From positions 1 through 64,000 of the forward strand of contig JAGVVD010000031.1 of assembly GCA_019135865.1 (NCBI GenBank): a stretch of DNA of 64,000 nucleotides, read 5' to 3'. Position numbers and translations under genes: made by a program. This document shows, one piece after another, positions 45,685 to 62,573 of this stretch. The notes below the pieces were generated by a model. That model saw only the letters and a program-made list of their open reading frames with translations, was not told the origin of the DNA and did not search any database. The number at the start of each line of letters is the position of its first letter. The stretch's first letter is position 1. The DNA comes from Elusimicrobiota bacterium. GTDB lineage: Bacteria; Elusimicrobiota; Elusimicrobia; Elusimicrobiales; UBA9959.

Positions 45685-45780
45685 GAGAAAATCGACTTTG
45701 TCGGTTTTTGACAATTTCGGTTCCTCATTGGAGAAACCAGCTCACACACACCAAGCTCGTTATACCGCTTTTGTCCATTT

Positions 45781-45811: not shown

Positions 45812-45822
45812 CACAGCTTGCC

Positions 45823-46605
45823 TTACCACTCACTGGGCTTGCGGAAATCCCCTACGGAGTCCTGCATAGCCTCTGGGAACTGGCTTGCACTTAACACCCC
45901 CTCGCGAATTGGGCGAACGAATGTTGCGACCGAAGCCAATTTTCGGCTGACAGGCTTTTGCTGCGGATTAAAAACCCCCACTGTTTTACCAAGACCGATT
46001 GACAATCGTATCGCCTCATACAAATCTGAATCATTTGAAACGACAACGGCGACATCAAAATCATTATTGCAGGCATCATACACCAAATGTGTCGCCAAAT
46101 TCACATCAGATCCTTTCTCATCGGTTCTCAGAACGTACGCGCTTTGGATTTGATCCTTGGGGACCTGAGAGAACACAGCATGAACATCAAAATTATGCAA
46201 ATCCGTTTGAGAATAGTAGAGGTGTTGTTTCACCAACTCCGGACGCCCACCCGCCTCATTATTACTTCTGAAAAATAGAATATGGTTGTTTTTTCTTTGG
46301 CTTCTATCATACTCGCAATTAACCAATGGCATGCGTGTTTTTCTAGTTTGGAATTGTCCACAAATTATTTTGAGATTTGGGATGGTTCGTAACGCTCTAT
46401 AGTACATCTGCTGCCTGACCGGCTGTTGCGGATCATTCAGTCTTGCGCTCACCTGTGCCGTAAAGTATTTAATATTTCCAACAACATTTCTTTCCGACAA
46501 AAGCAATGAGCACATCTTTGACACATCAAGCCATTTATACTTTGACCTCTTCAAACTACCAAAGTACAAGTTAAATCCATCGATGTAAATATTCGTCCTA
46601 AACAT
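45823..46605 (-). CDS. NYN-domain (LabA/PIN-like) nuclease protein
   Basis: 260 residues. Acidic-pocket motifs of the NYN fold: YIDGFNLYFG at the N-terminus, EKGSDVNLATHLVYDA in the middle and VVVSNDSDL after it, giving the conserved Asp cluster that binds metal. Family members are RNA- or DNA-cleaving and common in defence islands. It is much more A/T-rich than its surroundings, indicating separate transfer. It ends about 140 bp inside attL and reads toward it. GGGGG upstream of the ATG may be the ribosome-binding site. Confidence 0.82.
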   Translation of the reverse strand: MFRTNIYIDGFNLYFGSLKRSKYKWLDVSKMCSLLLSERNVVGNIKYFTAQVSARLNDPQQPVRQQMYYRALRTIPNLKIICGQFQTRKTRMPLVNCEYDRSQRKNNHILFFRSNNEAGGRPELVKQHLYYSQTDLHNFDVHAVFSQVPKDQIQSAYVLRTDEKGSDVNLATHLVYDACNNDFDVAVVVSNDSDLYEAIRLSIGLGKTVGVFNPQQKPVSRKLASVATFVRPIREGVLSASQFPEAMQDSVGDFRKPSEW

Positions 46606-46880
46606 TTGGCCCCCAAATAGCTGAGGCCACCTTTCGGTGGCCTCGCACCCTAAGACCGAAGCCCCAGGGGGTGTATGAGGATATTATTATACAAAAACAT
46701 TGAGTTTTCAAGGCAAGCAGGCATTAATTTTTCTAATAGTCTTTATCCTGTTTATATTTTTTGTAGTCAACTGGCCAGCCTCCTTTAACTCCATACACCC
46801 CTTAAGTCAGGCGAGACGGTCTCCGAGAACAGGCGCGCGGCTAGATTTGGGAGGGTTGGGGTGGTGCCCCCAAGGCCCGC
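46606..46880. other. Non-coding gap with one hairpin
   Basis: Hairpin GAGGCCACC-TTTC-GGTGGCCTC at 46622-46643, then A/T-rich DNA with a hydrophobic open frame (46700-46921) that has no ribosome-binding site and runs into the neighbour; I do not treat it as a gene. The hairpin may end transcription from the peptidase gene or form a leader for the NYN gene. Confidence 0.5.
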
Positions 46881-47597
46881 TCAGCCCTGCCAGCGCTCGT
46901 GGCCGAGAGGCAGGTCGTTGAGCTCCTGCCTGGCCTCGCGCCAGTTCGGGCAGTGCTTTGTCAGAAGGCCAAGGAACCGCTCATCGTGCTTCGGGGCTAT
47001 CAGGTGAAGCATCTCGTGGAGCACGACATAGTCGAGTAGGTCCTTCGGCTTCTTGACCAACTCCGTGTTAATGCGGATATTACCGGCACGCCGGTTGCAG
47101 CCCCCCCACCTGGTCTTCATGCGCTGCAGAAAGTAACCCGAGACCTTCACCTTGAGGCGGGCCTCCCATTTTTTGATCAGCGGCGGCAAGGCCTCATGCA
47201 GGAGCTGCCTATGCCATTCATACATGACCTCGGCCCGCTTGGCCTGCGTGCTCCCGGTGCGAACGGACAGCGTCATCTTGCAGGGGGATAAGCGCACGGA
47301 AGGCTTAGCATCAACCTCCCGAACCTCAAGCAGATAGCGCCGCCCCCAGATATAATGCGTCTCCCTGCCGACAAACTTGCGAGCACCCTCCCGGGCCTGC
47401 CCGCGCAACTTGGCTTGCTGTTCCCGTATCCAGCCCAACTTTGAAACGGCATAGGCCCGGGCCACCTCTAGGCGGGTCCCCCTGGGGACCACCATGGAAA
47501 CACGGCCCACCGGCGGATAGACGGATAGGTGGACGTGCTTTATCGCTTTCCTGGTCACGGAAACAACGATATCGCCAAGGCGAAAGGTTTCAGGCAT
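46881..47597 (-). CDS. DUF45/YgjP-type metallopeptidase associated with type I RM
   Basis: 238 residues, DUF45/YgjP family. Zinc motif HEMLHLIAPKHDERF (HExxH plus downstream His/Glu) near the C-terminus and MKTRWGGCNRRAGNIRINTEL before it. The role is unproven; such genes very often directly follow hsdR, as here (adjacent at 47597). It probably belongs to the hsdMSR transcript and may act on the RM proteins or in the same defence unit. Confidence 0.85.
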   Translation of the reverse strand: MPETFRLGDIVVSVTRKAIKHVHLSVYPPVGRVSMVVPRGTRLEVARAYAVSKLGWIREQQAKLRGQAREGARKFVGRETHYIWGRRYLLEVREVDAKPSVRLSPCKMTLSVRTGSTQAKRAEVMYEWHRQLLHEALPPLIKKWEARLKVKVSGYFLQRMKTRWGGCNRRAGNIRINTELVKKPKDLLDYVVLHEMLHLIAPKHDERFLGLLTKHCPNWREARQELNDLPLGHERWQG

Positions 47598-50500
47598 CAG
47601 TAACCCGGCTGCTTTTTTATTATCTCGAACAGGGCCATCGTGGCCTCGCGGTTGCGGTCGAGGAGCGGGAACAGTGCGTTGAGAAGCTGCCTTTCACGCG
47701 GCTCGTCGCCCTTCCAGCCAGCGGGCGCGTGCTCCCGTATCGCACGGTCTATCTCCAGCGCCAGCTTCGCACGGCGCTCAACCTCTTCGGGCGTTGGCTC
47801 GGCGGCTGGGGAGGCTCCGCCCGAAGCCGCAGCAAGAACAGAGGGCAGGTTATTATAAATTACCGCCGCTTCGGGGTTGCTATGGAGCCCAACAGGCAAG
47901 CCAGCCGTTGGCAGCTTGGCCGCCAGCCGGCGCACCAGGTCTTCCGCATTTTTGAGGAAGGCCTCATAGGCCTTAGTGTCGCTCCTATTCTGCTTTATCA
48001 GGTCATCCAGCAACTTGGACATCTGGTCGTAGAACTGCGGGTCGGTCAGGCGATCGCGGATAATGGTCTTGCGAACGTTGTTGATGATGGCCTCGGCCAC
48101 CGCGTTCCGGGTAAGCTTGCCCTTTTCGTTCAGTTTCTTCGCGATAGCGTCATGTATCCCCGTTTCAATTATCATCTCGGTCAGGGACAGGTTCCCGAAG
48201 TGCCCGAGCTCAACGGCAGGGTCGGCCTGAACATAGGTATTAAGCAGATACCGCATATCGGCCTCGAACGGCTTAATATCCAGCTCCTCTCCGGAATACT
48301 TCTTAATCGCGGCGCGGATATCGGCGTAGAACTCCACCTCTTTCTGCAGTTTAGCAGCCTCTTCTTCTGTATAGCCGGCCTCGGTCAGGTTCGGAGATAT
48401 ATCCGCAAAAGCGCGAGCCAGCACGACAGCCGCCTTATAATAGGCGACCCGAAGCGCCTCGGTTTCATTCAGCGCCTCCGGGTTATCCGTATTCCCACAG
48501 AAATAATGCAGGTACTGCTCCAGTTCTCGCGGACGGGCTACCGGCTCGCAGAGATAACGCATCGCCTCGCGGGCGGTTTCCAGCTTCTTCCGCCCCTCTT
48601 CCAGCCAGTCCTTCAGGTGGACATTATTGTCCCCACCGTTGCCTGCCTCGGTGTCCAGCTCGTCTGAGCTGTAGACCGCTATCGCCTGCTGCACGTCGGC
48701 AAAAAGTTCCTTATAGTCCACGATATAGCCGTAATCCTTATCGTCACCATCTAACCTATTGGTGCGGCAGATGGCCTGGAACAGGTTATGATCATGTAGC
48801 TCGTTGTCCAGGTAGATATAGGTACAGCTCGGGGCGTCATAGCCGGTAAGGAGCTTGCTTACCACTATCAGCAGCTTCAGGTTCGCCGGTTCTTCAATAA
48901 ACTTGCGCTTAGCCTCGTCCTCGTACTGCTTGGTGGTCTGGCCGGGCCCGAGAACATGCTTCGTATAGGTGTCGAACTTGAAGCGTTCCTCGCTATTCAG
49001 TGGTTCGCGCGAGATGGCATTATGGTTGGGTTCGAAAGAAGTGATGATGCCGCAGTACATGCCGAAAGGGGTCTGTTTGAATAGGTTGTAGTAATGGCAG
49101 GCATCGTATATGGAGGCCACCACCAGCAAGGCCGTGCCGCGATCGTTGTTCAGGCGCGGTTTCAGACTAAAATCCTGAATAATGTCGGCTATGATGCGCT
49201 GCTTGCGCTCGCCGGCGCTCATCAGTTTTTCCATGGTGGCCCAACGCTGGCGCAGGACCGCTTTCTGGAAGTTGTTAAGCGTTTTGGTTTTCTGGTCGAA
49301 CCACGCATCGATGGCTGCCTGTGAGGTAAGGCGCTGGGGCACGGAGCGGGCCTCGTATTTGAGGTCGAGTATTACTCCGTCCCCCACGCCTTCGTGGAAC
49401 TTGTAGGTGTGGATATAGGTGCCGAACACATCCCGGGTCATCTGCTTGTCCTTGCGGAGCAGCGGTGTACCAGTGAAGCCGATGAAGATAGCGCTTTCCA
49501 GCCAGCGCTTCATCTGCTTGTTCATGTCGCCGCCCTGGGTGCGGTGGCATTCGTCCACAAATACGTAGAAGCGCCCGTGCACCGGTGGCGGCGGCCCGTC
49601 CAGGTCGGCCACATCGAACTTGTGGATAAGGGCACATAGCAGGCGCGGAGTGGTAGCCCCAAGAGCTTGAACAAACTGTGCACGAGAAGTTATGCGCGGC
49701 GAAGGCGCACCAGCTCCTATCACCCCGGCATTGCGCATTACTCCTTCTATCTGCTTATCCAGCTCGTCGCGGTCGGTCACAATCAGCACCCGGGCGTCCG
49801 GGTCCTGCTCAAGTATCCACTTGGCGAGCAGGACCATCAGGATGCTCTTGCCGCTGCCCTGGGTATGCCAGATAACACCGCCCTCGCGGCGGGCCACCCG
49901 CTCCTGGGCGGCTTTAATGCCGAAGAACTGGTGCGGGCGAGGCACCTTCTTCTGGCCGGCGTCGAATATTATGAAATTACGCATCAGGTCCAGCAGGCGG
50001 GATTTGCTGCAGAGCTGGGCCAGCGGGCGGTCCAACAGGGCCCCCGGGGCCGGCTGCCCTCCGGTGGCAGGAGCCTCATCTTTCCACTGTACATAGAACT
50101 GCTCGGGGGTACCGGTGGTGCCGTAGCGCAAGCCTTGAGAGTCGCTGCCGGCCAATAGTAGTTGCGCAGGGGCAAAGAAATGCTTATTGAAGATCTCTTC
50201 CTGGTTGGTAATAAGCTGGCGCACGCCGTCGGCCACCTCTACCGAACTGCGCTTGAGCTCGATTACCGCTACGGCTAGGCCATTAAGGTAAAGCACGATA
50301 TCGGGGCGGCGCTCATGGCCGCCTTTGAGGGTCACTTCCTCGGCTAAGGCAAAATCGTTTTTATCAGGATGCTCCCAGTCTATAAGGTCAATGGTTTCGT
50401 GCGCACGACCAGGAGCGAGTTGGACTTTTATTCCATAGCGCAACAGCTGATAAGTGCGCATATTGGCCTGATAGAGGGTTATGCCGGTGGTATCGGCGGC

Positions 50501-50719
50501 AGTCTCTAGTTTCTGCAGGGCGGCGGAGATATGTGCGTCGGAATAGCCGCGCGCCCCAAGATTGGCGCGCAGCAGGTCTGTTTCGATGGTGCGATTGTTT
50601 TCACGCTTGTGCCAGTCGCCAAGATAGCGATAGCCAAGGCAATCCGGGCGGGATTTGTCGGTAAACAAGGCCACAACCCTGTTCTGAGTTTTACGCTCGG
50701 AGCGGGGCTGGTCAGGCAC
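47597..50719 (-). CDS. hsdR: Type I restriction enzyme, R (motor/nuclease) subunit
   Basis: 1040 residues. N-terminal nuclease motif [20 protein letters not shown] (PD-(D/E)XK pattern), Walker A TQGSGKS, DECH box VDECHRTQ, and motif VI-like QAICRTNR. It pumps DNA past the HsdMS complex and cuts unmodified DNA. GTG 50719 is preferred: AGGAG lies 6 bases upstream and it overlaps the hsdS stop by 8 bp; TTG 50740 is an alternative without such a site. Confidence 0.95.
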
Positions 50720-51995
50720 GGGCAGCTCCTGTGGGGACAAGCCTGGTCTTACCGGTGAGAAGTTCCTGCATCATAGCCTGCTTGAGAGCGCGAGTCTTAT
50801 CACGGCGGGCTTCGAGAGCTGCGAGTTCCGCATCCATATCCGAGAGAAGAGTTGCGATTGCATTTTGCTCCGACACCTCTGGCAGGTTAATTTCTAAATC
50901 TCTCAAATCCTTGCCATGCAAATGATAAATTGTAATCCCCTTCGTCCTATGTGCGATAGCGTTTTTGTAAACATGCGTTAGGCTATAGGCAAGAAAAACA
51001 GAATCGCACGAGTTCGGAACTGGACGAATAATATTGATATCGCCGCCAAGCAACACATTAGGACACAGCAGTGCTGATGCTTTAGCTAAATCTATCCCGG
51101 TTGTAGTTGTTGAGCCGGGAATCAAAACATCACCAGTTTTTGACAGCCGTCCTTCGCGAATACTTGTACTGCTATAAACAGTATCTATTTTCTCCCTGTA
51201 GGTCGTAAATAATTCCCCATAAAGAATACAGGGGCACTCTCCAGATAGCGACAGCTTATCTTTTGACAAGCCCTGCCCTTTTGTAATTTCGGAAAAATTC
51301 GAGAGCATTTTCACACTCCAATCACCCCGAAAACCAGGGAGGCGAGTCTGACCGGTGAGGAGTTGCTGCATGGCGGCCTGTTTTAGATTACTTTTTTTGG
51401 CGATGAGCCGGTCGAGCCCACACAGCAGCGCATCCATATCACTCAACACCGCCGCGATGGCGCGTTGTTCGGGGAGGGTTGGAAGGGGAATCTGGAAAGG
51501 ACGCAGTGCGCCAGCATTCAGGACGCCCATAGTCCCGCCCTGGGCATGCCTGCTGAGTCTTGATTGAACGAGGTCTGACTCGAATTGGTACTTGAAGAAC
51601 CTCGGAAGGACTTTGCTTCGATCGAAAGAAAAGCGCAGAAGGCGGGGATTAATCACACCGGGTTGGGCTACATCGGGAACCTCAAGCAACTTGCCAGCTG
51701 TTCCGACAAGGCTTAGAAGGACATCCCCGGGCCGAACTGCGCAGCTTTCGAGTTCGCGGTACTTCTTCGCGCTGATGAAATAGTCGCCGAACAGGTAGTT
51801 ACCACGAATTACCTGTTCCTGTCCGTACACTTTGTATCCCTCGGCGACGTACTGGGCTTTCGTGAGGGAAGATCCAAATGGCCCAGCTTTGATCGCCGGA
51901 ATGCCACCGGAACCGAGCGAATCTAGATGTGGAGTATCCCAATCCTCTGGAATGACCCCCACATCCGTCTGCTTGTACCCAGGCCTCACTTCCAT
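50712..51995 (-). CDS. hsdS: Type I restriction enzyme, S (specificity) subunit
   Basis: 427 residues. Two target-recognition domains, each followed by a conserved helical spacer: [18 protein letters not shown]...LLTGQTRL and [18 protein letters not shown]...LLTGKTRL. The repeated spacers give the protein its pseudo-symmetry, and the two TRDs read the two halves of a bipartite site. The second TRD (about 230-350) is A/T-richer than the rest, as if exchanged. Overlaps hsdM by 10 bp. Confidence 0.95.
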
Positions 51996-54409
51996 ATCGC
52001 ACCCATTTTTTTAAGGTGCTCCTCAACGCGGGACGTTAAGGCGGCAATTCCTTTTTCCAACTGCGGCAGCGGCTCGGCGTACCGCGCGGCCAGTTCACGT
52101 ATGCGCCCGGCAAGAGCCTGAGAAACGCTGCTCATCTCCTCCTGCACGGCAGCGGAAAGATGGGCCATCCACTTATCGTCTACCACCAGGGTCTTTATCT
52201 CATCCTGCGTCAGCTTAGGGTATTTCTCGTAGGCAAGCTTATCCATCGCCGCGTCTAGTTCTTTTACCTGGCGCTTCAAGGCGGTTTCCTTGTCGGACAA
52301 GTCTAACCAGCGGACCAGCACTTTGGCCTCGTCTTTATCTTCTTTGCTGTCTTTTATCTCTTTCAGCCTGGCGTTAACCTCGGCCTTGGCTATCTTATCT
52401 AACGCGCCGAGATAGCCCTCCTCGCCGCCGTGCTCTTCTTCCAGCTCAGCTAGACCGGCAGAGGCGGCATCCAGCTCGGCCTGCTTCGCGTCCAGCACGG
52501 CCTGCTCTTTGGCAAAATATCGGGCGACAATAAAGTATTTTGGGACAAGGTCGCAGGCCCAGCCCTTGTCCTTGGTCTTACCCTTCTTATCGGTCTCAAG
52601 TATGCGGGTGGGCTTCGCCACCCAGCCATCCGCCGCCAGCAGGTAGGCGTCATCCTGCATGGTCACGACCCAATAGTCCATCAAATGCTGGTAAACATCA
52701 TAGGCGTTGAGAAGCGGCGCTTTACGGAAAGCCGCAAGCAGGTCTTCAGCGATGCCTTCGACCAGCGCCTTTGGGGGATGCCCCTTGCCGAAGGCTGTCA
52801 GGCGCGGGGTAACGGCCTTACGCCAGCCCGAAAATATCTTGGTGCCCGTCTGATTGAAGGCCACGAACTCGGGGTGGTTGAAAATGGTTTGTTTGACCTC
52901 GGCCAGCGGGACCTTTAGCGCCGCATACCCGGGCCGACCGGCTGACTTGAACAAAGCCGCCCTCACAGAGGGCAATACCGCCCAATACTCCCCTAGAGCG
53001 TCCAAATCGCGCACGGGGATACCACCGCGCAGGTGGCCGTCTATATCCTGAAGGTCTTCCGGCTCGGAACTGTCTATATAACGCGGCAGGTTAAGGTTGT
53101 AGTCGTTCTTCGGGTCGGCTATCTCGTCAAGCGGTACCATGCGGGCATACCGCTGGGTATCGGTTTGTTTTTCAAAGGTGTCCACTATCCTGTGGATATC
53201 CTGCTCGCGCAGGCGGTTCTTGTTGCCGTCCTTTACGAAACCCTTGGATGCGTCTATCATGAACACGCCTTTGCGGACGGCGGCATTCTCTTTATCGAGC
53301 ACTAAAATACAAGCTGAAATACCAACGCCGTAGAAGAGGTTGGCGGGTAATCCGATAATCCCCTTGAGATACCCCGACCGCACAAGCTGCTGACGTATTA
53401 CGGCTTCCGCGTTGCCACGAAACAGCACTCCGTGCGGCAATATGCATGCGGCCTTACCCGCGCTCTTCATGGAGCGGATAATATGAAGAAGGAAGGCATA
53501 GTCGCCCTGCTTTGTAGGCGGGACTCCCCAGGCAAAACGCTGATATGGGTCCGCTTCCGGGTTAAGGCCCGTGGTCCAGGTCTTGCAGGAGAAAGGAGGA
53601 TTCGCCACCACATAATCGTACGCACGCAGCTTTTTATCGCCATCCTTGAACTTGGGCGCGGCGAGGGTGTTTCCCTGCTGAATATTGGCTGTCGGGAAGT
53701 TGTGCAGGATCATGTTCATGCGGGCAAGACCCGCCGTGGTTACGTCCATCTCCTGCCCTTCTAGCGTAATTTGCCGCCCCGCCTGCGCGGCCAACCCTAG
53801 CAGCAGTGAGCCTGAGCCGCAGGTGGGGTCATAGGCGGTGGTAGAGGCCCTGGTGTTAGAGTGAGAGATGCCGATGACCTTGGCGATAACGCGGCTGACC
53901 TCCGCCGGGGTGTAGAACTGCCCCTTGCTCTTGCCGCTCTCCGTGGCAAAATGCCGCATCAAGTATTCGTAAGCGTCGCCAAGTATGTCGTCGTGCTCGG
54001 CGCGGTTCTGCGAAAAATCCAGCTCCGGCTTCTCGAAGATGGCTATGAGGCTGGTAAGCCGGTCCACCATAGCCTTGCCTTCGCCGAGCTTGTTGGGGTC
54101 GTTGAAGTCAGGGAAGTCGCTGCGGGCCAGGCGCTCGTTGGCCTCTATTAGGGGCTGGATTATCTGGGTGTTTATCAGGTCGCCTATCTTGGTGTTGCCC
54201 TTCAGCTTGGACATGTCCTTAAAGCTGGAGCCTTTCGGGATAACCACCGGGGGCGCGAAGTCCGTGCTGTCGCCATACTTGTCCGTGATGTACTTTAGGA
54301 ACAGCATGAACAGGACGTAGTCCTTATACTGAGAGGCGTCCATACCGCCGCGAAGCTCATCACAGGCGGACCAGATGGAGGAGTAGAGGTCAGATTTTTT
54401 TAGTGGCAT
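51986..54409 (-). CDS. hsdM: Type I restriction enzyme, M (methyltransferase) subunit, long form
   Basis: 807 residues, about 300 more than classical HsdM. N-terminal HsdM_N helical domain, SAM-binding YDPTCGSGSLLLG and catalytic VANPPF of N6-adenine methylases. The C-terminal extension (about 500-807) is charged and helical with likely coiled coil, a feature of one HsdM subgroup. It modifies self DNA together with HsdS. It is the first of hsdM-hsdS-hsdR-peptidase. Confidence 0.95.
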   Translation of the reverse strand: MPLKKSDLYSSIWSACDELRGGMDASQYKDYVLFMLFLKYITDKYGDSTDFAPPVVIPKGSSFKDMSKLKGNTKIGDLINTQIIQPLIEANERLARSDFPDFNDPNKLGEGKAMVDRLTSLIAIFEKPELDFSQNRAEHDDILGDAYEYLMRHFATESGKSKGQFYTPAEVSRVIAKVIGISHSNTRASTTAYDPTCGSGSLLLGLAAQAGRQITLEGQEMDVTTAGLARMNMILHNFPTANIQQGNTLAAPKFKDGDKKLRAYDYVVANPPFSCKTWTTGLNPEADPYQRFAWGVPPTKQGDYAFLLHIIRSMKSAGKAACILPHGVLFRGNAEAVIRQQLVRSGYLKGIIGLPANLFYGVGISACILVLDKENAAVRKGVFMIDASKGFVKDGNKNRLREQDIHRIVDTFEKQTDTQRYARMVPLDEIADPKNDYNLNLPRYIDSSEPEDLQDIDGHLRGGIPVRDLDALGEYWAVLPSVRAALFKSAGRPGYAALKVPLAEVKQTIFNHPEFVAFNQTGTKIFSGWRKAVTPRLTAFGKGHPPKALVEGIAEDLLAAFRKAPLLNAYDVYQHLMDYWVVTMQDDAYLLAADGWVAKPTRILETDKKGKTKDKGWACDLVPKYFIVARYFAKEQAVLDAKQAELDAASAGLAELEEEHGGEEGYLGALDKIAKAEVNARLKEIKDSKEDKDEAKVLVRWLDLSDKETALKRQVKELDAAMDKLAYEKYPKLTQDEIKTLVVDDKWMAHLSAAVQEEMSSVSQALAGRIRELAARYAEPLPQLEKGIAALTSRVEEHLKKMGAIWK

Positions 54410-54514
54410 GTCAATAATATTCGCAATATGAGTAATCTTATAAAATCCCGAACCGAGAGGGCAGGGACAAGATTTCTACCCCGAAAAGCATACCGACACC
54501 TCAGCTTAAATCAG

Positions 54515-55075
54515 CTATTTGCCTACAGCATTCTTATACTGCCCATACAGGAGCAACATTTCCTTCCACCTAGAGTCATCCTCTGCGCTATAATACAGCT
54601 CCCGAATTCTCTCATAGGTCAAGCCAAGCCCGACATCCTCAAGGTATCTGAAGGCTTTTTCTTTTGATATCTGCCTGTCTTTAGCACAAACTTCAACCAA
54701 CGCATGCACGTGCATGGCGTCATATAGTCCAGACCCCTTCTTTCTGCCACGGGTTCCAGGAGGGCGCTTATCAGAAAGCACCAAGTCATATAGTTTCCCT
54801 TGAACCCACGGGTGCTGAAAGAAAAAGGGATACTTACCGAGCAATCTCTTAAGAGCCCCAACATCACCGTCTTCGTATTTTTTCACATGCTCGTTGAACA
54901 CATCAGACACGTTCGCAAAAGCCTGTGCCAAGCTGCCCTTACTTGAGAACTGCGGGGCCTCAATTACAGGCCCATTTTTGCCGCTTTTAATTGAGCCCCC
55001 AGTTAGGGTTAATGGGACAAAAAGCCTTGCTCGCTGAGACTCCGCACCGCTTTTAGTTTTTTTAGCACGCTTCAT
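54515..55075 (-). CDS. Hypothetical protein upstream of hsdM
   Basis: 186 residues, very basic N-terminus (MKRAKKTKSG) and a helical C-terminal half (YDAMHVHALVEVCAKDRQISKEKAFRYLEDVG). I do not recognise a family. It lies 106 bp before hsdM on the same strand and is A/T-richer than the chromosome. GGGGGC precedes the ATG. It could be an accessory or regulator of the RM operon; there is no motif to prove it. Confidence 0.6.
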   Translation of the reverse strand: MKRAKKTKSGAESQRARLFVPLTLTGGSIKSGKNGPVIEAPQFSSKGSLAQAFANVSDVFNEHVKKYEDGDVGALKRLLGKYPFFFQHPWVQGKLYDLVLSDKRPPGTRGRKKGSGLYDAMHVHALVEVCAKDRQISKEKAFRYLEDVGLGLTYERIRELYYSAEDDSRWKEMLLLYGQYKNAVGK

Positions 55076-55189
55076 ACGCCCCCAAAGTTGTGGGGAAAAA
55101 CAGCAGATATTTCCCTACAGAGAGTCCCTCTGTCGTTCCGCTAGAATTAGTTTACCAAACTAAAACTGCATGCACACAGAGCCATAAAG

Positions 55190-57298
55190 ATGAACGCAAA
55201 TTTAAACAGGTTCCCCGACGACAACATCTCCCGTAAGCTAGCAAACGCGCTTGCCTACGCGGAAGAGGGCTGGGCAATACTACCTCTTCTTCCTGGAGAG
55301 AAGCGCCCACTGAACGGCAATGGCTTTAGAGGCGCGACAAAAGACCCGGCAGAAATCCGCGCTTGGTGGACCGAGCGCCCTGATGCCAATATCGGAATAG
55401 CGACCGGAGAGGTCTCCGGGATAGTCGTGATCGATGTGGACGTCAAAGGCGGGACAAACGGGAACGAGTCCCTCAAACAGCTAACGGGTTTACCTCCGAC
55501 GTTAACCGCACGCACCCAGAGCGGAGGCCTTCACTTATATTACCTCTATCCTTCCGGCGGTCTACGTTGCCGGGTCGCAGTCCTTCCAGGCATAGATGTT
55601 CGTGCTGATGGCGGCTACGTAGTCGCTCCAGGCTCTATCATCGGTGGCGTCCTTTACGAGTGGATCGACCCCGAAGTCAATATAGCGGCTCTTCCCGAAC
55701 ATATTTTGGCCATCCTGCGGGGCTCGACATCTCCCACGCCCCGGCAAGTCTCCGCCTCCCCCGCTGGATTAATCACACCAGGCGAACGGAACAGCTCTCT
55801 CACGCGGCTTGCCGGGTCCCTCCGCCGCAGCGGGGGCGACCAGATAGCGATCGAAGAAGCCTTACTAACAGAGAACGCCACAAAATGCAGCCCCCCGCTG
55901 CCCGAGACGGAGGTTCGCACGATCGCACGAAGTGTGTCCCGGTACGCCCCTGCGACTCGCCAAGCCCTTGCAGAGCGATTCAAGCCCAACGTAATAGCCG
56001 AGCGCCTCCGTGAGACACGGGACTACATCACTGCGCCCATCGACGAAGCTGGCATGGGCGTACGTCTGATGACATACAGGAACGGGGTCTTCCACCCAGA
56101 TGGAGAAAGCGAAGCTCGGCGCATTATTCATGAGATGCTAGGAGAAGACTCAAAGCCGGAGCGACTATCCTCCACCATCGAAATGCTGAAGGAGAGCACC
56201 AAGACCGACAGCCGCCTCCTAGACCCCCGCGCCGACGAGCTCATCAATGTCGAGAACGGGATGTTAGACTGGCGAACCGGGGAGCTGTTTCCACACTCCC
56301 CCGAGTACCGATCGACAATACAGATCCACGCCGCATACAGACGCGGAGCGGAGTCGAAAATCATTAATCAGTTCCTGCGCGAAGTATTCCCCCCCGATGC
56401 GCAACCGCTGACTGATGAATTCCTCGGCTACCTGTCGATACCGACCACCAAATATCAAAAGGCCTTCATGCTAGTTGGTGAGGGCGCCAATGGGAAAAGC
56501 ACGTTCCTCTCTATGCTCACCGAACTTCTTTGCCCAAGAAACGTTTCAAACGTCGCCCTACAAGACTTGGTCGGGAACAGGTTCGCCGCCGCCGAACTGC
56601 AGTGGAAGCTCGCTAACATCTACGCCGACCTGCCGAGCTCCGGGCTGGAGGAATCCGACGTCTTCAAGGCCGTGGTGGCCGGAGACAGCATCAAGGTCGA
56701 AAGGAAGTTCGGCCACCCGTTCAAATTGCGCCCTACCGCCCGGCTCATATTTAGCGCGAATGATTTACCACGAAGCCGAGACCTGAGTCATGCCTATTTC
56801 CGACGCTGGGTGATTATCCCATTCCCGAACACCTTCGAAGGCTCCGCCGCGAAGAAGGGATTACTTTCAGAGTTATGTACCGATGAGGCCCGCGCGGCGC
56901 TGCTGCAACGTGCAATCACAGGCCTCCGCCGGCTTGAAGAACAGCAAGAGTTCTCGGCCTGTCCAAGCGTACAAGCTGCCTGCCAGGCGTACAGGACCCA
57001 GTGCGACAGCGCCTATGAGTTCCTCACGACCGCCATCGAGAAGGACCAGGATTTCAGCTTGGGCAAATTGAAAACCTACGAGCGGTACACCGAGTGGTGC
57101 TCAAGCGCGGGCATCCACACCCCCGTTAGCCAGCGGGCCTTCAACAAGCGCCTGCAGGAGGTCTTCCGGGTCGCGGAAAAGCGCGACACCCTTGGCAGGC
57201 GCGTCTGGCCGGGCCTGCGCCTGCGTGATGAATTCGCGAGCAGCACGGACGACTCACCGGCTTCACCGGGTTTTTACAACTCTAAGGACGAATTATGA
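55190..57298 (+). CDS. Primase-helicase (Prim-Pol plus P4/D5-type helicase)
   Basis: 702 residues. An N-terminal bifunctional primase/polymerase domain (WAILPLLPGEKRPL, WWTERPDANIGIATG, VVIDVDVKGG with the acidic catalytic residues) joins a D5/P4-like SF3 helicase: Walker A GEGANGKST near 430, then the SANDLPRSRD and FRRWVIIPF segments. Such proteins start replication of satellites and plasmids at an adjacent origin. The nine-motif repeat array directly after its stop is the obvious candidate site. It is the first of a plus-strand set of replication and regulatory genes. Confidence 0.92.
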   Translation: MNANLNRFPDDNISRKLANALAYAEEGWAILPLLPGEKRPLNGNGFRGATKDPAEIRAWWTERPDANIGIATGEVSGIVVIDVDVKGGTNGNESLKQLTGLPPTLTARTQSGGLHLYYLYPSGGLRCRVAVLPGIDVRADGGYVVAPGSIIGGVLYEWIDPEVNIAALPEHILAILRGSTSPTPRQVSASPAGLITPGERNSSLTRLAGSLRRSGGDQIAIEEALLTENATKCSPPLPETEVRTIARSVSRYAPATRQALAERFKPNVIAERLRETRDYITAPIDEAGMGVRLMTYRNGVFHPDGESEARRIIHEMLGEDSKPERLSSTIEMLKESTKTDSRLLDPRADELINVENGMLDWRTGELFPHSPEYRSTIQIHAAYRRGAESKIINQFLREVFPPDAQPLTDEFLGYLSIPTTKYQKAFMLVGEGANGKSTFLSMLTELLCPRNVSNVALQDLVGNRFAAAELQWKLANIYADLPSSGLEESDVFKAVVAGDSIKVERKFGHPFKLRPTARLIFSANDLPRSRDLSHAYFRRWVIIPFPNTFEGSAAKKGLLSELCTDEARAALLQRAITGLRRLEEQQEFSACPSVQAACQAYRTQCDSAYEFLTTAIEKDQDFSLGKLKTYERYTEWCSSAGIHTPVSQRAFNKRLQEVFRVAEKRDTLGRRVWPGLRLRDEFASSTDDSPASPGFYNSKDEL

Positions 57299-57344
57299 CG
57301 ATGAATTTCATGAGAGTGCGTTCTTCCCGGATAAGCCGGTCTGG

Positions 57345-57462
57345 CCGTGGACCGCCCCTTGCCGACCGTGAAGCAGGCCGTGACCCACGCCGTGAAACCA
57401 CCGTGGGCAGCCCGGTCCGCCACCGTGACATAACCGTGAGGCCTACCGTGGCCCTCACCATG
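57345..57462 (+). repeat. Phased CCGTGR repeat array, candidate replication origin (iterons)
   Basis: Core CCGTG at 57345, 57366, 57378, 57390, 57401, 57423, 57434 and 57446, and CCATG at 57458; nearly all are followed by A or G. Steps are 21, 12, 12, 11, 22, 11, 12 and 12 bp, so all sites fall on one face of the helix with two empty slots. The motifs fall in two codon phases, which argues against a coding cause. The position right after the primase-helicase stop fits an origin bound by that protein. Confidence 0.7.
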
Positions 57463-57489
57463 ACCTAAAACAGAACTTGGGAGATTACT

Positions 57490-57858
57490 ATGCAAGAACA
57501 AGAAGAGTACATGCTCGTCGAAGACGGAGCCCGGCTTCTCGGAATTCCGGTCGGCCTGCTGCGGGACGCAGGTCGCAAAGGACGGATATCCTTCCACAAG
57601 AGCAACCGCATCGTCGAACGCGGGCAACTATACACATCGCCGATACTGTCAATAACACAGCTGGCAAAGGCATTACGGGTCCCCCGGAAAGCCCTCACCA
57701 AGGCCGCCAAGGCAGGGGAATTCGACACCTACCCGGCCCGCATGACGAGCGTGAAGAGCAAGCCGGACGGCCCCCGGTACGCCCCTTACCTGGCCGCCCT
57801 CCTATGGGCAATGACCCGGGCGCTGCCGGAAGCCGGAGGTGGCGACCATGCCCAGTAA
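57490..57858 (+). CDS. Small putative DNA-binding protein of the element
   Basis: 122 residues. Two segments look like winged-helix or excisionase-type helix-turn-helix units (MLVEDGARLLGIPVGLLRDAGRKGRI and ITQLAKALRVPRKALTKAAKAGEF). No family recognised with confidence. GGGAG lies upstream of the ATG. It overlaps the next gene by 11 bp and belongs to the run of small genes after the origin candidate. Confidence 0.65.
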   Translation: MQEQEEYMLVEDGARLLGIPVGLLRDAGRKGRISFHKSNRIVERGQLYTSPILSITQLAKALRVPRKALTKAAKAGEFDTYPARMTSVKSKPDGPRYAPYLAALLWAMTRALPEAGGGDHAQ

Positions 57859-57997
57859 AATCGTGTTGGTTCAATTACGGGTGCCGGAAAAGGCGTACAG
57901 GCGCATCGCGCGGCAGGCCGCCGCGTTGAACATGTCGCTCAACCAGTACCTCGTAAAGTCTACCCGGAAGTCGACCGGAAAGGAGGAAAAGCCATGA
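57848..57997 (+). CDS. 49-residue ribbon-helix-helix protein
   Basis: LVQLRVPEKAYRRIARQAAALNMSLNQYLV fits the ribbon-helix-helix fold of Arc/CopG/HicB-type regulators: a short beta strand, a helix and the SLNQYL second helix. Overlaps both neighbours, including ATGA with the next gene. Probably an autoregulator or plasmid-copy-type repressor of the element. Confidence 0.75.
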   Translation: MPSKIVLVQLRVPEKAYRRIARQAAALNMSLNQYLVKSTRKSTGKEEKP

Positions 57998-58125
57998 ACT
58001 ATAGCTATGAAGACCTGCTCGAAGCGCTCGAAGGCGTCGTGAAGGAACTGGGGCTGAGCCCGCGTAACCAGATCCAGACCCTGATCGACCGGCTCGAGGA
58101 AGAGCTGGAAGACGAGGACGAGTAA
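57994..58125 (+). CDS. 43-residue acidic small protein
   Basis: MNYSYEDLLEALEGVVKELG opens a helical, strongly acidic chain that ends EELEDEDE. A good AGGAGG site precedes the ATG, which overlaps the RHH gene stop. No family recognised. The pairing with a basic RHH protein suggests a partner or a DNA mimic, but that is inference. Confidence 0.65.
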   Translation: MNYSYEDLLEALEGVVKELGLSPRNQIQTLIDRLEEELEDEDE

Positions 58126-58138
58126 CCCTCGCCCGAAC

Positions 58139-58168
58139 GGGCCGAGGGGGAAGCGCCCCCCTCGGCCC
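58139..58168 (+). terminator. Strong hairpin after the small-gene run
   Basis: Perfect 12-bp stem GGGCCGAGGGGG/CCCCCTCGGCCC (58139-58150, 58157-58168), loop AAGCGC, followed by CCATTT. The T-run is weak, so it may act as partial terminator or RNA-stabilising stem ahead of the zinc-ribbon gene. Confidence 0.55.
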
Positions 58169-58188
58169 CCATTTACAGGAGATACGAT

Positions 58189-58359
58189 ATGCACACTCAT
58201 AAGAAAGTAGAGCGGGCCTGCGAGGTCTGCGGCGCAGCCTTCAAAGCCAGGGCGGCGGACCAGCGGGCCAATCGTGGCCGCACATGCTCCCCCCGCTGCG
58301 CAGGCAGGCTGGGAGGTCAGGCCAGGGCACGGCGCTACCCGCGCGCCCATCAGCGTTAA
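58189..58359 (+). CDS. 56-residue zinc-ribbon protein
   Basis: CEVCGAAFKARAADQ and TCSPRCAGRLGG give a CxxC...CxxxC zinc site in a basic chain. ACAGGAGA precedes the ATG. Such proteins are frequent in phage and satellite regulatory regions; precise role unknown. Confidence 0.7.
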   Translation: MHTHKKVERACEVCGAAFKARAADQRANRGRTCSPRCAGRLGGQARARRYPRAHQR

Positions 58360-58374
58360 CAGGAGAGAACCATT

Positions 58375-58593
58375 ATGGAAAGGAAATTATTAAACGTGAG
58401 GCAGTTGTCGGAATATATTTCGATGCCGGTGGCGACGATATACACCTACGTTCACACCGGCAAGATACCAAACTACTGCATCCGCCGCATAGGGCGGGCG
58501 CTAAAGTTCGATGTGGCCGAGGTCGACAGGTGGATTACTGAGGCTTCTGGGTCTCGAGCCAGCGCTCAAGGGCATAAACGATCTGCTCATTAA
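58375..58593 (+). CDS. AlpA/excisionase-type helix-turn-helix protein
   Basis: 72 residues. LLNVRQLSEYISMPVATIYTYVHTGKIPNY...FDVAEVDRWI is the HTH_17/excisionase domain, used by P4 AlpA and Xis proteins to control or assist integrase. AGGAGA precedes the ATG. The last 20 codons overlap a convergent RHH gene and look non-conserved. It lies 200 bp before the integrase, as expected of a recombination directionality factor. Confidence 0.85.
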   Translation: MERKLLNVRQLSEYISMPVATIYTYVHTGKIPNYCIRRIGRALKFDVAEVDRWITEASGSRASAQGHKRSAH

Positions 58594-58696
58594 GGGACCG
58601 GCGCTCCTTTTCCGCAATGGCCTTGAGCCTGTCCCTAACTTCAGAGGGGTAGCGCAGGTTAACGGATACAAGAGCGGCCTTTTTCCCTTTAGTCAT
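58535..58696 (-). CDS. 53-residue Arc-type ribbon-helix-helix protein
   Basis: Minus-strand frame: AALVSVNLRYPSEVRDRLKA then SLNEQIVYALERWL, a clear RHH pattern with the RSLNEQIV helix typical of Arc-like proteins. It overlaps the tail of the excisionase-like gene in antisense. A perfect TATAAT lies 6 bases before its ATG. It probably represses itself and/or the integrase promoter just to its right. Confidence 0.78.
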   Translation of the reverse strand: MTKGKKAALVSVNLRYPSEVRDRLKAIAEKERRSLNEQIVYALERWLETQKPQ

Positions 58697-58702
58697 AGTT
58701 AA

Positions 58703-58708
58703 ATTATA
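58703..58708 (-). promoter_or_regulatory. TATAAT -10 box of the Arc-like gene, leaderless
   Basis: TATAAT on the minus strand is followed by TTAACT and then ATG at 58696, so transcription would begin at the start codon. No ribosome-binding site could fit. Confidence 0.6.
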
Positions 58709-58759
58709 TCAAACGGCATCAAAATGGAGCCATTCCAGTATTAAACCATCACCATGTTG

Positions 58760-58803
58760 TGGTATAATATTGGTACTATTTTGGCACTATTATGGTATGG
58801 CTA
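58760..58803 (+). repeat. Four 11-bp tandem repeats at the integrase promoter
   Basis: TGGTATAATAT (58760), TGGTACTATTT (58771), TGGCACTATTA (58782) and TGGTATGGCTA (58793), exactly 11 bp apart. The first contains a TATAAT -10 box; the last runs over the integrase ATG. Cooperative binding here by one of the small RHH/HTH proteins or by integrase would shut the promoter. ACCAT motifs in the opposite direction lie just upstream. Confidence 0.65.
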
Positions 58804-59945
58804 TATTTAAGCGGCAAAATGTCTGGTGGATAGACTATTACGTTTGCGGAAAGCGCAAGCGCGAGAAGATCGGTCCCAGTCATAAGCTCGCGGAAGAGGT
58901 CCTCCACAAAAGGAAGGTCGAGATAGCCGAAGGCAAGTTCTTCCCCAACAGGCACAAGTCGGCCTCGAAATTCAACGTCGTGGCGGACCTTTATTGGGAG
59001 AACCACGCCAAGCACAAGCCCAGCATCAAGGCCGCCTATTACACCCTCAAGCCATTAAAGGCTTTCTTTAACGACAAGCCGCTGGACCAAATCACGACTT
59101 TGGACGTCGTTAAATATCTCAACGGCGTCCGGGAGCGCGCCTCCGCCGCCACAGCAAACCGCCATCACAACGTCCTCCGCGCGATATTCAACAGGGCCAT
59201 CGACTGGGAACTCTTCAGCGGCCAGAACCCCGCTTCTAAGGTAAAGCAGTTCAGGGTCGAGAACTCCCGCACCCGGTTCCTTGAGAATCAGGATATAACC
59301 CGCTTGCTCGCGGTCTGCGATCATGAAATACGCCCTATTGTGATAGTCGCGTTGCTCACAGGTATGCGGCACGGGGAGATACTCAACCTCCGGTGGGAGC
59401 ACATAGACCTCGCCAACGGGGTCGTCCATGTTCTAAAGACAAAGTCGGGCGAGCCGCGAGAAATTCCTATTATGCCACGACTAAGGGCCCTCCTGGAGTC
59501 GATACGAAGAGGAGACGGCGGGAGAATATTCGCGATATCAAGCCGCGCCCTCAACCGTCATTTCAGCAAGGCGCTACACCTCGCCGGAATCCAGGATTTT
59601 AGATTCCACGACCTGCGCCACACCTTCGCTTCGCACTTTGTAATGCGGACCAACGACCTCCCCGCCACGCAGAAACTCCTCGGGCACAAGTCCCCCCGCA
59701 TGACGCAGCGCTATGCACATTTATCAAAGGGGCACTTACAAGTGGAAATGCAGGTGTTCGAGTCAGGCTGGGCGAATATCTTAAAAGCACCTATTTTTGA
59801 CCCTCAAATAGCGCCAGCCAGCCAACCGGGCGGCATAACCCGGGGAAACCCAGAAAGAGGAGAAGTTCATGCAAATAATACGGGAGACGGCATACAATCT
59901 GCCGAGGGTGCGGAGCCTCAAGGCCCGAAACATCTTCGGCTTTAA
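58797..59945 (+). CDS. Tyrosine recombinase (integrase)
   Basis: 382 residues from ATG 58797. N-terminal Arm-binding-type strand region (MAIFKRQNVWWIDYYVCGKRKREKIGP), SAM-like core-binding domain (about 70-165), and catalytic domain with Arg in LLTGMRHGEILNLRW, FHDLRHTFASH (HxxR), the LLGHKSPRMTQRYAHL segment with His and nucleophile Tyr. It catalyses site-specific integration into and excision from tRNA-Gly. An upstream TTG (58770) is in frame but lies inside the promoter repeats. The end overlaps the mini-ATPase gene. Confidence 0.95.
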   Translation: MAIFKRQNVWWIDYYVCGKRKREKIGPSHKLAEEVLHKRKVEIAEGKFFPNRHKSASKFNVVADLYWENHAKHKPSIKAAYYTLKPLKAFFNDKPLDQITTLDVVKYLNGVRERASAATANRHHNVLRAIFNRAIDWELFSGQNPASKVKQFRVENSRTRFLENQDITRLLAVCDHEIRPIVIVALLTGMRHGEILNLRWEHIDLANGVVHVLKTKSGEPREIPIMPRLRALLESIRRGDGGRIFAISSRALNRHFSKALHLAGIQDFRFHDLRHTFASHFVMRTNDLPATQKLLGHKSPRMTQRYAHLSKGHLQVEMQVFESGWANILKAPIFDPQIAPASQPGGITRGNPERGEVHANNTGDGIQSAEGAEPQGPKHLRL

Positions 59946-60414
59946 AAAACTCAACCTATCGTTCTCGCCCGGGGTTAATCTGATTCTGGGCGGCAAGGGA
60001 GAGGGCAAGTCCAACTTGATAGCCCTACTTTCCGGGCCTATGAGGCTCGGCTTTATGCTGGCCGGAGAACCGATAGTTTATCGCGGGGCCACACGAGCCT
60101 CCCTTTTCGTCGAATATGAGATTTTTAAGTTCAGATATCGCAAGGACGGAATTCCTGGGGGCCATGGGCCGCTCGCCATGAGCTGCTTCAATGACATGAA
60201 GAAGTTTTTGCGGCATCTACCCAAGGACGACTGCTTCGTGACGGAACTCGACTGGCTGGTGGCTTTTAATCGCCAACCCGTGCCCTATAAAGCAGTGTGG
60301 GAGGCCTTTCTAAACGCCCGGTGCCAGATAATCGCCACCGCTTTCGACACATGCGAGGTCCCCTTACCGGAATCCGGCACAACAATACACCGACTGCCCT
60401 TAAGGCGGATGTAA
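59869..60414 (+). CDS. Miniature P-loop ATPase (RecF/SMC-like N-terminus)
   Basis: 181 residues. VRSLKARNIFGFKKLNLSFSPGVNLILGGKGEGKSNL is the N-terminal strand and Walker A of RecF/OLD/AAA_23 ATPases. The large middle part and ABC signature are missing; VTELDWLVAF and ARCQIIATAFD may be remnants of Walker B and the H-loop strand. Either a compact ATPase family or an internally deleted gene. AGGAG lies upstream of the ATG; it overlaps the integrase by 77 bp. Confidence 0.65.
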   Translation: MQIIRETAYNLPRVRSLKARNIFGFKKLNLSFSPGVNLILGGKGEGKSNLIALLSGPMRLGFMLAGEPIVYRGATRASLFVEYEIFKFRYRKDGIPGGHGPLAMSCFNDMKKFLRHLPKDDCFVTELDWLVAFNRQPVPYKAVWEAFLNARCQIIATAFDTCEVPLPESGTTIHRLPLRRM

Positions 60415-60450
60415 GATTTCGGGAGGCGAGAAGAGGACGGCAGGGGACAA

Positions 60451-60825
60451 CTATCGTTTCAGTATTTTATAGACCGCGCCAAGGGTTTCAGGGTCCCTTA
60501 GGGCCTTTAATATCGAGCGGACTTTCTCTTTCTGCTCTTTCGTTTTGCCGGCCAGAGCGGCCCGCAGTTGGCCGTCTAATTTTAAATCAGTGTTAGTGGC
60601 TTTACTATGCTCGACTTCCGAGAACAACTCGCCCGCCGAAACATTCAGACTCCGGGATATCTTCAATATCGTCCCGAGGCTAGGGGACTTCTTCCCGTTC
60701 TCGATATAGTTCAAAAATCCGCCGTCTATGCCCGCCATTTCCGCGAGCTGACTGATAGTCAGCCCCGCCCGCTTGCGAAGGGCTCTGATTTTTGCGCCGA
60801 CAGCCGAGATAGAGGCGTTTTCCAT
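60451..60825 (-). CDS. XRE-family (Cro/CI-type) repressor
   Basis: 124 residues. N-terminal HTH_3 domain: IRALRKRAGLTISQLAEMAGIDGGFLNYIENGKKSPSLGTILKISRSL. A C-terminal charged helical tail (KTKEQKEKVRSILKALRDPE) may dimerise. AAGGA ribosome-binding site before the ATG. Its promoter (TTGGGC, 16 bp, TATAAT at 60840-60845) contains a dyad over the start site, so it probably represses itself as well as the divergent barrel/TPR gene. Confidence 0.88.
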   Translation of the reverse strand: MENASISAVGAKIRALRKRAGLTISQLAEMAGIDGGFLNYIENGKKSPSLGTILKISRSLNVSAGELFSEVEHSKATNTDLKLDGQLRAALAGKTKEQKEKVRSILKALRDPETLGAVYKILKR

Positions 60826-60827
60826 TT

Positions 60828-60907
60828 TGTCCTTAAGACATTATATGGATAATACGCCATAGCCCAAATATCCGTAAGGACATGCGATATTAGTTGTCTT
60901 ATAGACA
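60828..60907. promoter_or_regulatory. Divergent promoters with TGTC-N5-GACA operators
   Basis: O1 TGTCCTTAAGACA (60828-60840) abuts the leftward -10 (60840-60845). O3 TGTCTTATAGACA (60895-60907) covers the -35 TTGTCT of a rightward promoter whose -10 is TAAAAT at 60916-60921. A degenerate O2 (60870-60882, matching ...TAAGGACA) lies beside the leftward -35. The layout is that of a phage-like repressor controlling both directions. Confidence 0.7.
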
Positions 60908-61040
60908 TTTTTTTGTAAAATAAACCAAAATCCTCGAGTATCGACACTCCATAGTAAGACACCCGGACTTGATAAGCGGCCCTTGGAAGAGACCGTAGAC
61001 GGGAGTTGTTTTTGCTTGCATAAAGGGCAGGAGGCATTCT

Positions 61041-62294
61041 ATGAAACCGCAGATTAAGATATTTTTAGCCGCTGTATTTCTCGCCCTTACCCCCACAACC
61101 GGCGCGGCGGAAGGAACATTGAAGTGGATTACCGAGTTGGATGTCTTTCTTCCGGCTCAGGCAGCCGACGGGGAGGAGTCTGATCTAAAGGAATTATCGC
61201 GCGATTATATCGCCGATGGCGGGGATTCCACTACCTCCACCATTGAAACAAAGGCAGCAATAGGCGGCAGACTTGGGATCCTATATCCGCACCCGCGAAT
61301 AGGCGACATCGGGCTGAGCGTAGGGTATATCAGCGGACCTAATTCCGATATACGATTTAGAGGATTCACCTCTGGTTTCTTCGCCGACACCCTTAACTAC
61401 ACCCGTAATTTGAGCTTTATCCGTGCGATGGTAGAATACCGGAAGGAGTCCCCAGCTTCGGACGGTTGGACTTTTTATCCCGCCTTTGGAGTAGGCAAAG
61501 CGTTCGGGGTCAGCAAGTGGGAGATTACCCAAGCGACCAACTATTATTCTGCGCTAAAGGGGCGAACTTTAAAAGAAAAGTGGGATGGCTTCACCTGGGA
61601 AGCCTCTCTGGGCTTTGCCCGAAAAATGGCGGGCTCCGATCTTACTTTCGCGATAAGATATGCGGCCTTCCCTGAACGAAAAGCTGCCTCGGGGAAAGAT
61701 ATCACCGAAATCAAATGGAACACCTTCGGCTGCTCCGTAGGTCTGAGCTTTGGAGGCAATGATCCGTACACTGAAACTTCTTCTTATCGTCCTCCGAGCA
61801 GGACCAGCGAGTATCGGCCCATGAAAGAGAGCTCTTTAGCCACCCCTGAACCGGCGCAAGCTGAAGAAATAATCGAAGAAGTAGAAGAAGAACTGCCGCC
61901 CGTGGATTATGACGCCGTCCTCCACTCCGCTGAAGGATATCGAAAACAGGGAGATTATCAGAAAGCGCTTGAGGAATACGGAAATGCTTTAAAAGCCCTC
62001 CCGGTTAATGACAAACGAGTAATTTATGTGCTTGAACGTCGTGGCCTTATGAACACGAAATTGGGAAACCTTTCAGGAGCCAAGGGTTCCTATGCGGGAT
62101 CCATAACTGCGGCAAAAAAGCTCAACATCGCAGATACGACCGTTATTAACGCCTATCTCGGCTTGGCCTACGCGCAGGAAAAGACCGGAGGAACACAGGC
62201 GGCCATCCGGAACTATCGGAAGGCTCTTCAGCTGACCAACGACCCAGGAACTAAAGCCCAAATCCAAAAGGCCCTTCAGCGGCTGGAGCGCTAA
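61041..62294 (+). CDS. Secreted beta-barrel-like protein with C-terminal TPR domain
   Basis: 417 residues. Signal peptide (ends TTGAA). Residues about 27-240 alternate in outer-membrane barrel fashion (IGGRLGILYPHP, DIGLSVGYISG, WTFYPAFGVGKAFG, FTWEASLGFARKM, FGCSVGLSFGG). An acidic linker (EEIIEEVEEELPP) leads to a TPR region (YRKQGDYQKALEEYGNAL, AYLGLAYAQEKTGGTQAAIRNYRKAL). GGAGG precedes the ATG. The cargo role is unknown; control by an element repressor is implied by the operators upstream. Confidence 0.75.
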   Translation: MKPQIKIFLAAVFLALTPTTGAAEGTLKWITELDVFLPAQAADGEESDLKELSRDYIADGGDSTTSTIETKAAIGGRLGILYPHPRIGDIGLSVGYISGPNSDIRFRGFTSGFFADTLNYTRNLSFIRAMVEYRKESPASDGWTFYPAFGVGKAFGVSKWEITQATNYYSALKGRTLKEKWDGFTWEASLGFARKMAGSDLTFAIRYAAFPERKAASGKDITEIKWNTFGCSVGLSFGGNDPYTETSSYRPPSRTSEYRPMKESSLATPEPAQAEEIIEEVEEELPPVDYDAVLHSAEGYRKQGDYQKALEEYGNALKALPVNDKRVIYVLERRGLMNTKLGNLSGAKGSYAGSITAAKKLNIADTTVINAYLGLAYAQEKTGGTQAAIRNYRKALQLTNDPGTKAQIQKALQRLER

Positions 62295-62395
62295 AAAACA
62301 CCCCAAGGATGGGCGCGCGGCTACATAACCCATGCCACCTACCCAGGAGGCGGCACATGGATGCCGGCTCCTCATTTATACCGCCTGTCCCTAGA

Positions 62396-62415
62396 TGGAC
62401 ACCTGCATGGACACC
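62396..62415 (+). promoter_or_regulatory. Candidate integrase arm-type sites, right end
   Basis: Two TGGACACC copies in direct orientation at 62396 and 62408, 12 bp apart and about 85 bp inside attR. They match the motif set inside attL. Confidence 0.6.
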
Positions 62416-62452
62416 AAAGGCCTAGAATAGCCCCCTAACCCATAAAACAAAA

Positions 62453-62477
62453 ACGGTGGATTTCTTCAATCCACCGT
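62453..62477 (-). terminator. Element-encoded terminator downstream of tRNA-Gly
   Basis: 10-bp stem ACGGTGGATT/AATCCACCGT, loop TCTTC, followed on the minus strand by TTTTTGTTTT. It lies just past the restored tRNA 3' end and replaces the original terminator displaced to the left end. Confidence 0.85.
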
Positions 62478-62498
62478 CGGGAAACTGCGGTTAAATTT

Positions 62499-62545
62499 TT
62501 GGAGCGGGCGAAGGGAATCGAACCCTCGTCTGAACCTTGGCAAGG
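62499..62545. repeat. attR: 47-bp direct repeat within intact tRNA-Gly
   Basis: Exact match to attL (45638-45684). It covers the tRNA from the CCA end to the 5' side of the anticodon loop, so the crossover probably lies in or near the anticodon arm. Confidence 0.95.
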
Positions 62546-62573
62546 TCCCGTTCTACCATTGAACCACGCCCGC
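62500..62573 (-). tRNA. tRNA-Gly (anticodon GCC)
   Basis: Minus strand, 74 nt with encoded CCA. Acceptor GCGGGCG pairs with CGCCCGC (62567-62573 with 62504-62510); discriminator U as usual for Gly. The anticodon loop TTGCCAA gives GCC at 62541-62539. T-arm AGGGTTCGATTCCCT is canonical. It is the attachment gene of the element and lies 43 bp downstream of cysS. Confidence 0.97.

Follow-up and report, generated by a model that had tools for sequence, protein, structure and literature searches.

Just downstream of a primase-helicase gene in an Elusimicrobiota genome, a pentanucleotide recurs in one direction at steps of 11-12 bp or about twice that. The window analysed here is a stretch of 64,000 nucleotides of this genome, and its first-pass annotation read the repeats, at 57345-57462, as nine helically phased CCGTG motifs forming a candidate replication origin. 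Does the array indeed go with the primase, and if not, where might the origin lie and what might bind the repeats?

The repeat array and the element that carries it

The array is carried by an integrative element of 16.9 kb (45638-62545), which also bears the primase. The ends of the element are exact direct repeats of 47 bp, the left att repeat at 45638-45684 and the right one at 62499-62545, where it overlaps the 3' end of a tRNA-Gly(GCC) gene on the minus strand (62500-62573). From the left, the element encodes an NYN-domain protein, a YgjP-like metallopeptidase, type I restriction genes (assigned by reading ORF translations and backed by ORF matches among related loci), a 186-aa protein and the primase-helicase, followed by the array. 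The NYN-domain protein matches PADLOC HEC-09 with 131 bits. According to Pfam and PHROGs, the primase-helicase (702 aa; 55190-57298, plus strand) combines Prim-Pol, PriCT_1, a D5_N-DUF5906 helicase and a C-terminal winged helix (Pox_D5, RFX-like).

Further genes follow the array, the first five of them on the plus strand at the coordinates given. A 122-aa protein (57490-57858), whose gene starts 28 bp past the array, has a weak HTH_17 match at residues 53-78 (E = 9.5e-5, 23 bits, under the curated cut-off). It is followed by a 52-aa ribbon-helix-helix (RHH)-like protein (57839-57997; Pfam HicB, E = 5.5e-4, slightly under the cut-off) and a 72-aa protein resembling AlpA-type excisionases (58375-58593; HTH_17, 40 bits; phrog_66; PDB 8c3t, AlpA family). 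Next are a tyrosine integrase (58770-59945; Phage_integrase, 103 bits), a 181-aa mini ATPase of the AAA_23 type (59869-60414; Pfam), a Cro-like protein and a TPR protein.

On the plus strand, exact CCGTG motifs start at 57345, 57366, 57378, 57390, 57401, 57423, 57434 and 57446 (n = 8), within the longer pattern ACCGTGR. The coordinates and eight of the nine copies first claimed are therefore right, while the ninth site is CCATG (57458-57462), with one mismatch. The steps of 21, 12, 12, 11, 22, 11, 12 and 12 bp had been given correctly, as had the two codon phases of the motifs (0 and 2 mod 3), and the two longer gaps are filled by degenerate slots, CCTTG at 57357 and CCGGT at 57412. The array is a true direct-repeat array and more than a chance arrangement. 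When any 5-mer recurring at steps of 11, 12 or 21-24 bp was sought in 60 copies (64 kb) drawn from an order-3 Markov model trained on the window, chains reached at most five members, against eight in the window array. Within the window, no other 5-mer formed a chain of five or more with steps of 10-13 and 21-25 bp allowed. CCGTG as such is not enriched across the whole window (181 occurrences against 166 expected).

The best period of the array is 11.25 bp (R = 0.96), whereas at 10.5 bp per turn R is only 0.33. Because of this longer period, the sites do not share one face of the DNA, as had been supposed; neighbouring sites are turned by about 26 degrees at 10.5 bp per turn and so follow a spiral.

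The array occurs in two more genomes (see below), and its 24 sites in three genomes were compared. Since the search itself dictated the core, identity there is uninformative, and positions -1 and +5 were unselected. Position -1 is A in 19 of the 24 sites and every site has a purine at position +5, whereas the spacers agree at 28-33%, against 30% predicted from base composition. Since flanks agree while spacers match as random sequence would, it appears that sites rather than repeat units have been kept, and the pattern argues for binding sites over a minisatellite or a recent tandem duplication.

The array is decoupled from the primase

Matches to the primase were present in 32 of 341 genomes of the phylum, some of which are incomplete, and 16 homologous loci were read with long flanks. 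Nowhere in the fetched stretches of these 16 was there a chain of five or more of any 5-mer at steps of 10-13 bp, and five of the array-less primases are 55-61% identical to that of the window over the helicase and the C-terminal part. Absence beside homologous primases, the very outcome that the first-pass annotation had named as speaking against its proposal, is what the search returned.

Pattern and profile searches of the 341 genomes found further strong ACCGTGR arrays only in two genomes, designated G148 (nine copies, period 11.3 bp) and G034 (seven copies, 11.45 bp). Both belong to the same family as the window genome, and neither has a match to this primase. Of the many weak matches from the profile search, the ones given with loci amounted to short runs of no more than three sites, or to no run at all. 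The array, being absent at 16 homologous loci and present in two genomes that lack the primase, is thus decoupled from it. What stands of the proposed primase-linked iteron origin is a real direct-repeat array in a primase-bearing integrative element; the linkage itself is not supported.

Each array-bearing genome has a single strong array, which points to a binder carried by the element. In G148, the array lies upstream of an HTH_17 gene (34 bits), a mini ATPase, a methylase-HTH_17 fusion and an integrase, the integrase and the ATPase being 38% and 39% identical, respectively, to those of the window element. In G034, the array lies between two divergent, non-mobile-looking genes, and neither an HTH_17 gene nor an integrase was recognised near it.

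Four-copy CCGTG arrays with 11/12-bp steps were also found in 16 viral contigs, and in 10 of these contigs it falls within a gene matching or resembling a phage replication initiator. Eight of the assignments were made by PHROGs (L091, L148, L184, L269, L270, L271, L274 and L276); L153 was assigned solely from DUF1376 and its gene context, and L273 from near-identity to L271. In the viral contigs L104 and L140, CCGTG arrays lie downstream of a PrimPol primase. Repeats follow the primase in PrimPol phages as well, examples being GGGACAC spaced by 11-12 bp in R23.1 and ACCGTT in TP-778L. A pattern search of the viral contigs found no relatives of the window primase. Like these phage and post-PrimPol iterons, the window array consists of direct repeats of about 11 bp close to replication genes; unlike them, it is intergenic, runs in one direction and is missing beside homologous primases.

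The idea that CCGTG is a special motif was abandoned, a reversed-motif control having returned 14 and 25 viral loci where CCGTG returned 9 and 8. Because a control motif yields as many arrays, the spacing class alone is notable and not the CCGTG core, and this class of arrays at about 11 bp is a general one that identifies no function by itself. With the control motif GTGCCA, 11-bp arrays are common in viral contigs (L277-L308), some lying in initiator-like genes and some elsewhere, as judged by eye from translations.

An inverted repeat at the primase stop codon

The feature that homologous loci share beside the primase, in place of the array, is an inverted repeat, which the first-pass annotation had missed. 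In the window, it occupies 57256-57340 around the primase stop, with arms of 15 nt and two mismatches (57256-57270, ACCGGCTTCACCGGG; 57326-57340, CCCGGATAAGCCGGT) separated by a spacer of 55. Its left arm sits inside the primase gene, and the array begins just past the right arm. The DNA fold of this stem-loop has a z score of -2.76, and taken alone it is marginal (p about 0.1), with 4 of 58 random element windows scoring equally high. Among the relatives, an inverted repeat right after the primase stop beat all 40 dinucleotide shuffles at 12 of 16 loci; by the same score, L041, L042, L043 and L054 gave no significant inverted repeat. The relatives' spacers measure 49-69, and the outer end lies at most 131 nt from the primase stop. 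Their arms are often made of two tandem units of about 10 bp, for example TACCGGGAATACCGGGT and TGCAGACGCAGCAGACGCAG. The layout is constant between clades and the arm sequence varies (loci L039-L053), the ACCGG repeats of the window stem-loop being common to L039-L041, the nearest relatives having this motif. At loci of PrimPol phages, two of three have an inverted repeat within 170 nt past the stop that beats all background windows, with scores of 16 for R23.1 and 11 for a second, unnamed phage; TP-778L is without one.

A comparable arrangement has been described for the plasmid pRN1, whose origin is a stem-loop of about 100 bp (21-nt stem, 58-nt loop) downstream of a gene for a PrimPol-helicase-wHTH protein; replication requires this stem-loop, and a stem-loop origin has also been proposed for phages encoding the same type of protein (PMC4234260). 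The window primase likewise has PrimPol, an SF3/D5 helicase and a C-terminal wHTH in the same order on one polypeptide, and a large stem-loop lies beside the 3' end of its gene, with a spacer of 55 against the 58-nt loop and a structure that is kept more than its sequence in 12 of 16 relatives. It differs in having arms of 15 nt with two mismatches instead of 21, and in that the left arm falls within the primase gene. The CCGTG array lies outside this pRN1-type stem-loop.

From this comparison, the stem-loop at 57256-57340 is more likely than the array to be the replication origin of the element, and the inverted repeats beside Elusimicrobiota PrimPol-helicase genes are likely to be pRN1-type origins. 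If so, pRN1-type initiation, a mechanism described in plasmids of archaea and suggested for a small number of phages, would reach integrative elements in a bacterial phylum that has seen hardly any genetic work, and the candidate origin would now be narrowed to a fragment of about 85-130 bp. Two look-alike features can thereby be told apart, a stem-loop that is a candidate origin and is common to integrative elements with a PrimPol-helicase, and a direct-repeat array that is independent of it.

Could the array nonetheless consist of origin iterons? Replication would then start when the primase-helicase attached its C-terminal winged helix to the CCGTG sites, either by themselves or jointly with the neighbouring ACCGG inverted repeat. 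We consider this unlikely, although it is the chief competitor of the reading favoured below. Its position directly after the primase and the inverted repeat would suit such a role, as would the wHTH-like C-terminal match (Pox_D5/RFX-like), a DNA-binding domain of the kind asked of an initiator, and the ACCG core of the array is similar to the ACCGG repeats of the stem. The post-primase repeats of R23.1 and TP-778L, the arrays of L104 and L140 and the 10 of 16 viral arrays in initiator or initiator-like genes point the same way. Against these stand the absence of the array at all 16 homologous primases, its presence in two genomes without this primase, and the orientation of its sites, all of which run in the same direction with no inverted partner, unlike the common stem-loop.

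Candidate binders of the array

The reading that we tentatively favour, on comparative evidence and with confidence a little short of even, is that a small winged-HTH protein, the product of a neighbouring gene, binds the repeats head to tail in the manner of BldC or Xis. On direct repeats spaced by roughly one helical turn, protomers of BldC, lambda Xis and RdfS are aligned head-to-tail (PMC5859096, PMC11963761). The window array is similar in having a variable number of same-direction sites about one turn apart, with a putative HTH_17-type gene adjoining, in an integrative element; same-direction sites about one turn apart are found in all three arrays, with periods of 11.25-11.45 bp. It differs in that its motif is the GC-rich CCGTG and that its period of 11.3 bp is slightly longer; the consensus of BldC is rich in AT, and its repeats measure 9 bp.

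On the favoured reading, the array would occupy a regulatory region that separates the primase-origin block from the next operon. The binder would come from the HTH_17/MerR/Xis superfamily; the 122-aa product is the most likely candidate, failing which the 72-aa excisionase-like protein, and the 52-aa RHH-like protein is an alternative. Such a protein would occupy one ACCGTGR site per 11.3 bp or so and polymerise along the array. The resulting filament would regulate the operon that follows and thereby govern whether the element is excised or replicated. The array would then offer a defined site for identifying the protein that controls the element.

This winged-HTH reading is preferred because the array is decoupled from the primase and HTH genes lie beside arrays. 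Such HTH_17/MerR-type genes score 34 bits in G148 and 23 bits (under the cut-off) in the window; a gene in a further genome, G020, has E = 0.031, and none was recognised in G034. The reading is weakened by the low HTH score of the 122-aa protein, by five homologues of the G148 HTH protein that have no array adjoining, and by the context of the G034 array. It is weakened also by the HTH proteins of the window and G148, which could not be aligned with each other, by an AlphaFold model of the 122-aa protein too poor to use (pLDDT 44.7), by the divergent BldC consensus and by the sigma-70 promoter, which was sought and not found. The 122-aa protein had no homologues in 59 genomes of the family and no match in a PDB sequence search. 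With so few array-bearing genomes (n = 3), the association of arrays with HTH genes and with the ATPase may partly reflect shared ancestry of two elements.

The G020 array (L087:9160-9300) comprises 12 [TC]ACGG units at 11-12 bp, which are CCGTG-like but different, and lies upstream of the weakly MerR-like gene just mentioned (MerR_1), an excisionase-like gene, an integrase and tRNA-Cys.

The centromeres of Par systems (parC, tubC) are also direct repeats of 11-12 bp. A partition site, at which the 52-aa RHH or the HTH protein would bind the repeats and the complex would be acted on by an ATPase (possibly the mini AAA protein), is an improbable reading of the array. The likeness lies in the repeats, in the RHH gene downstream of the array in the window, and in the mini ATPase (174-181 aa). 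The mini ATPase was found in two of the 341 genomes, that of the window and G148 (L085:6593-7117), where the order is array, HTH gene, ATPase. Other matches in the 341 genomes were short P-loop matches only. Both genomes with the ATPase have an ACCGTGR array within 5 kb, linked to related integrases, so that array and mini ATPase co-occur exclusively. Yet the ATPase is of the AAA_23 type, and no ParA, ParM or TubZ was recognised among the proteins examined; moreover, the RHH gene was not seen at G148, and in the window the ATPase gene lies 2.4 kb off, past the integrase. Distinctly improbable, too, is that array, HTH adaptor and compact AAA_23-type ATPase together make up a new type of DNA-maintenance or replication-control module in integrative elements of Elusimicrobiota, beside a pRN1-type stem-loop origin.

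We give equally little credence to a functionless or decayed tandem repeat. Similar low-complexity arrays of about 11 bp are scattered in another genome, G338, and the abundance of GTGCCA control arrays makes CCGTG unremarkable; but while the spacers are random-like, 7-bp sites and flank preferences have been kept in three genomes. The G338 arrays, short runs of GTTCCGTGTCT at three places (L088, L089 and L090), were judged a different feature, being dispersed repeats that lie between ordinary genes or at their edges.

A leader RNA, protein-bound RNA repeats or a small protein is very improbable, for although RNA from 57340-57489 has a slightly more favourable fold than shuffled sequences (z = -1.99), no Rfam family matched, the 57-aa frame across the array matches no protein family and all frames of the G148 array hold stops, which bears out the earlier view that protein coding does not explain the motifs.

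The G034 array is flanked by a perfect 17-bp inverted repeat, CCGACAGCGTGGTGTCG (L086:9755-9771 and 9951-9967), which may represent a hairpin, a terminator or a repeat element. The notion of a mobile repeat bounded by this sequence was dropped, as the motif is dispersed and none was listed on the window contig; with two mismatches allowed, it has 11-15 dispersed copies in each of three genomes, against zero for the control.
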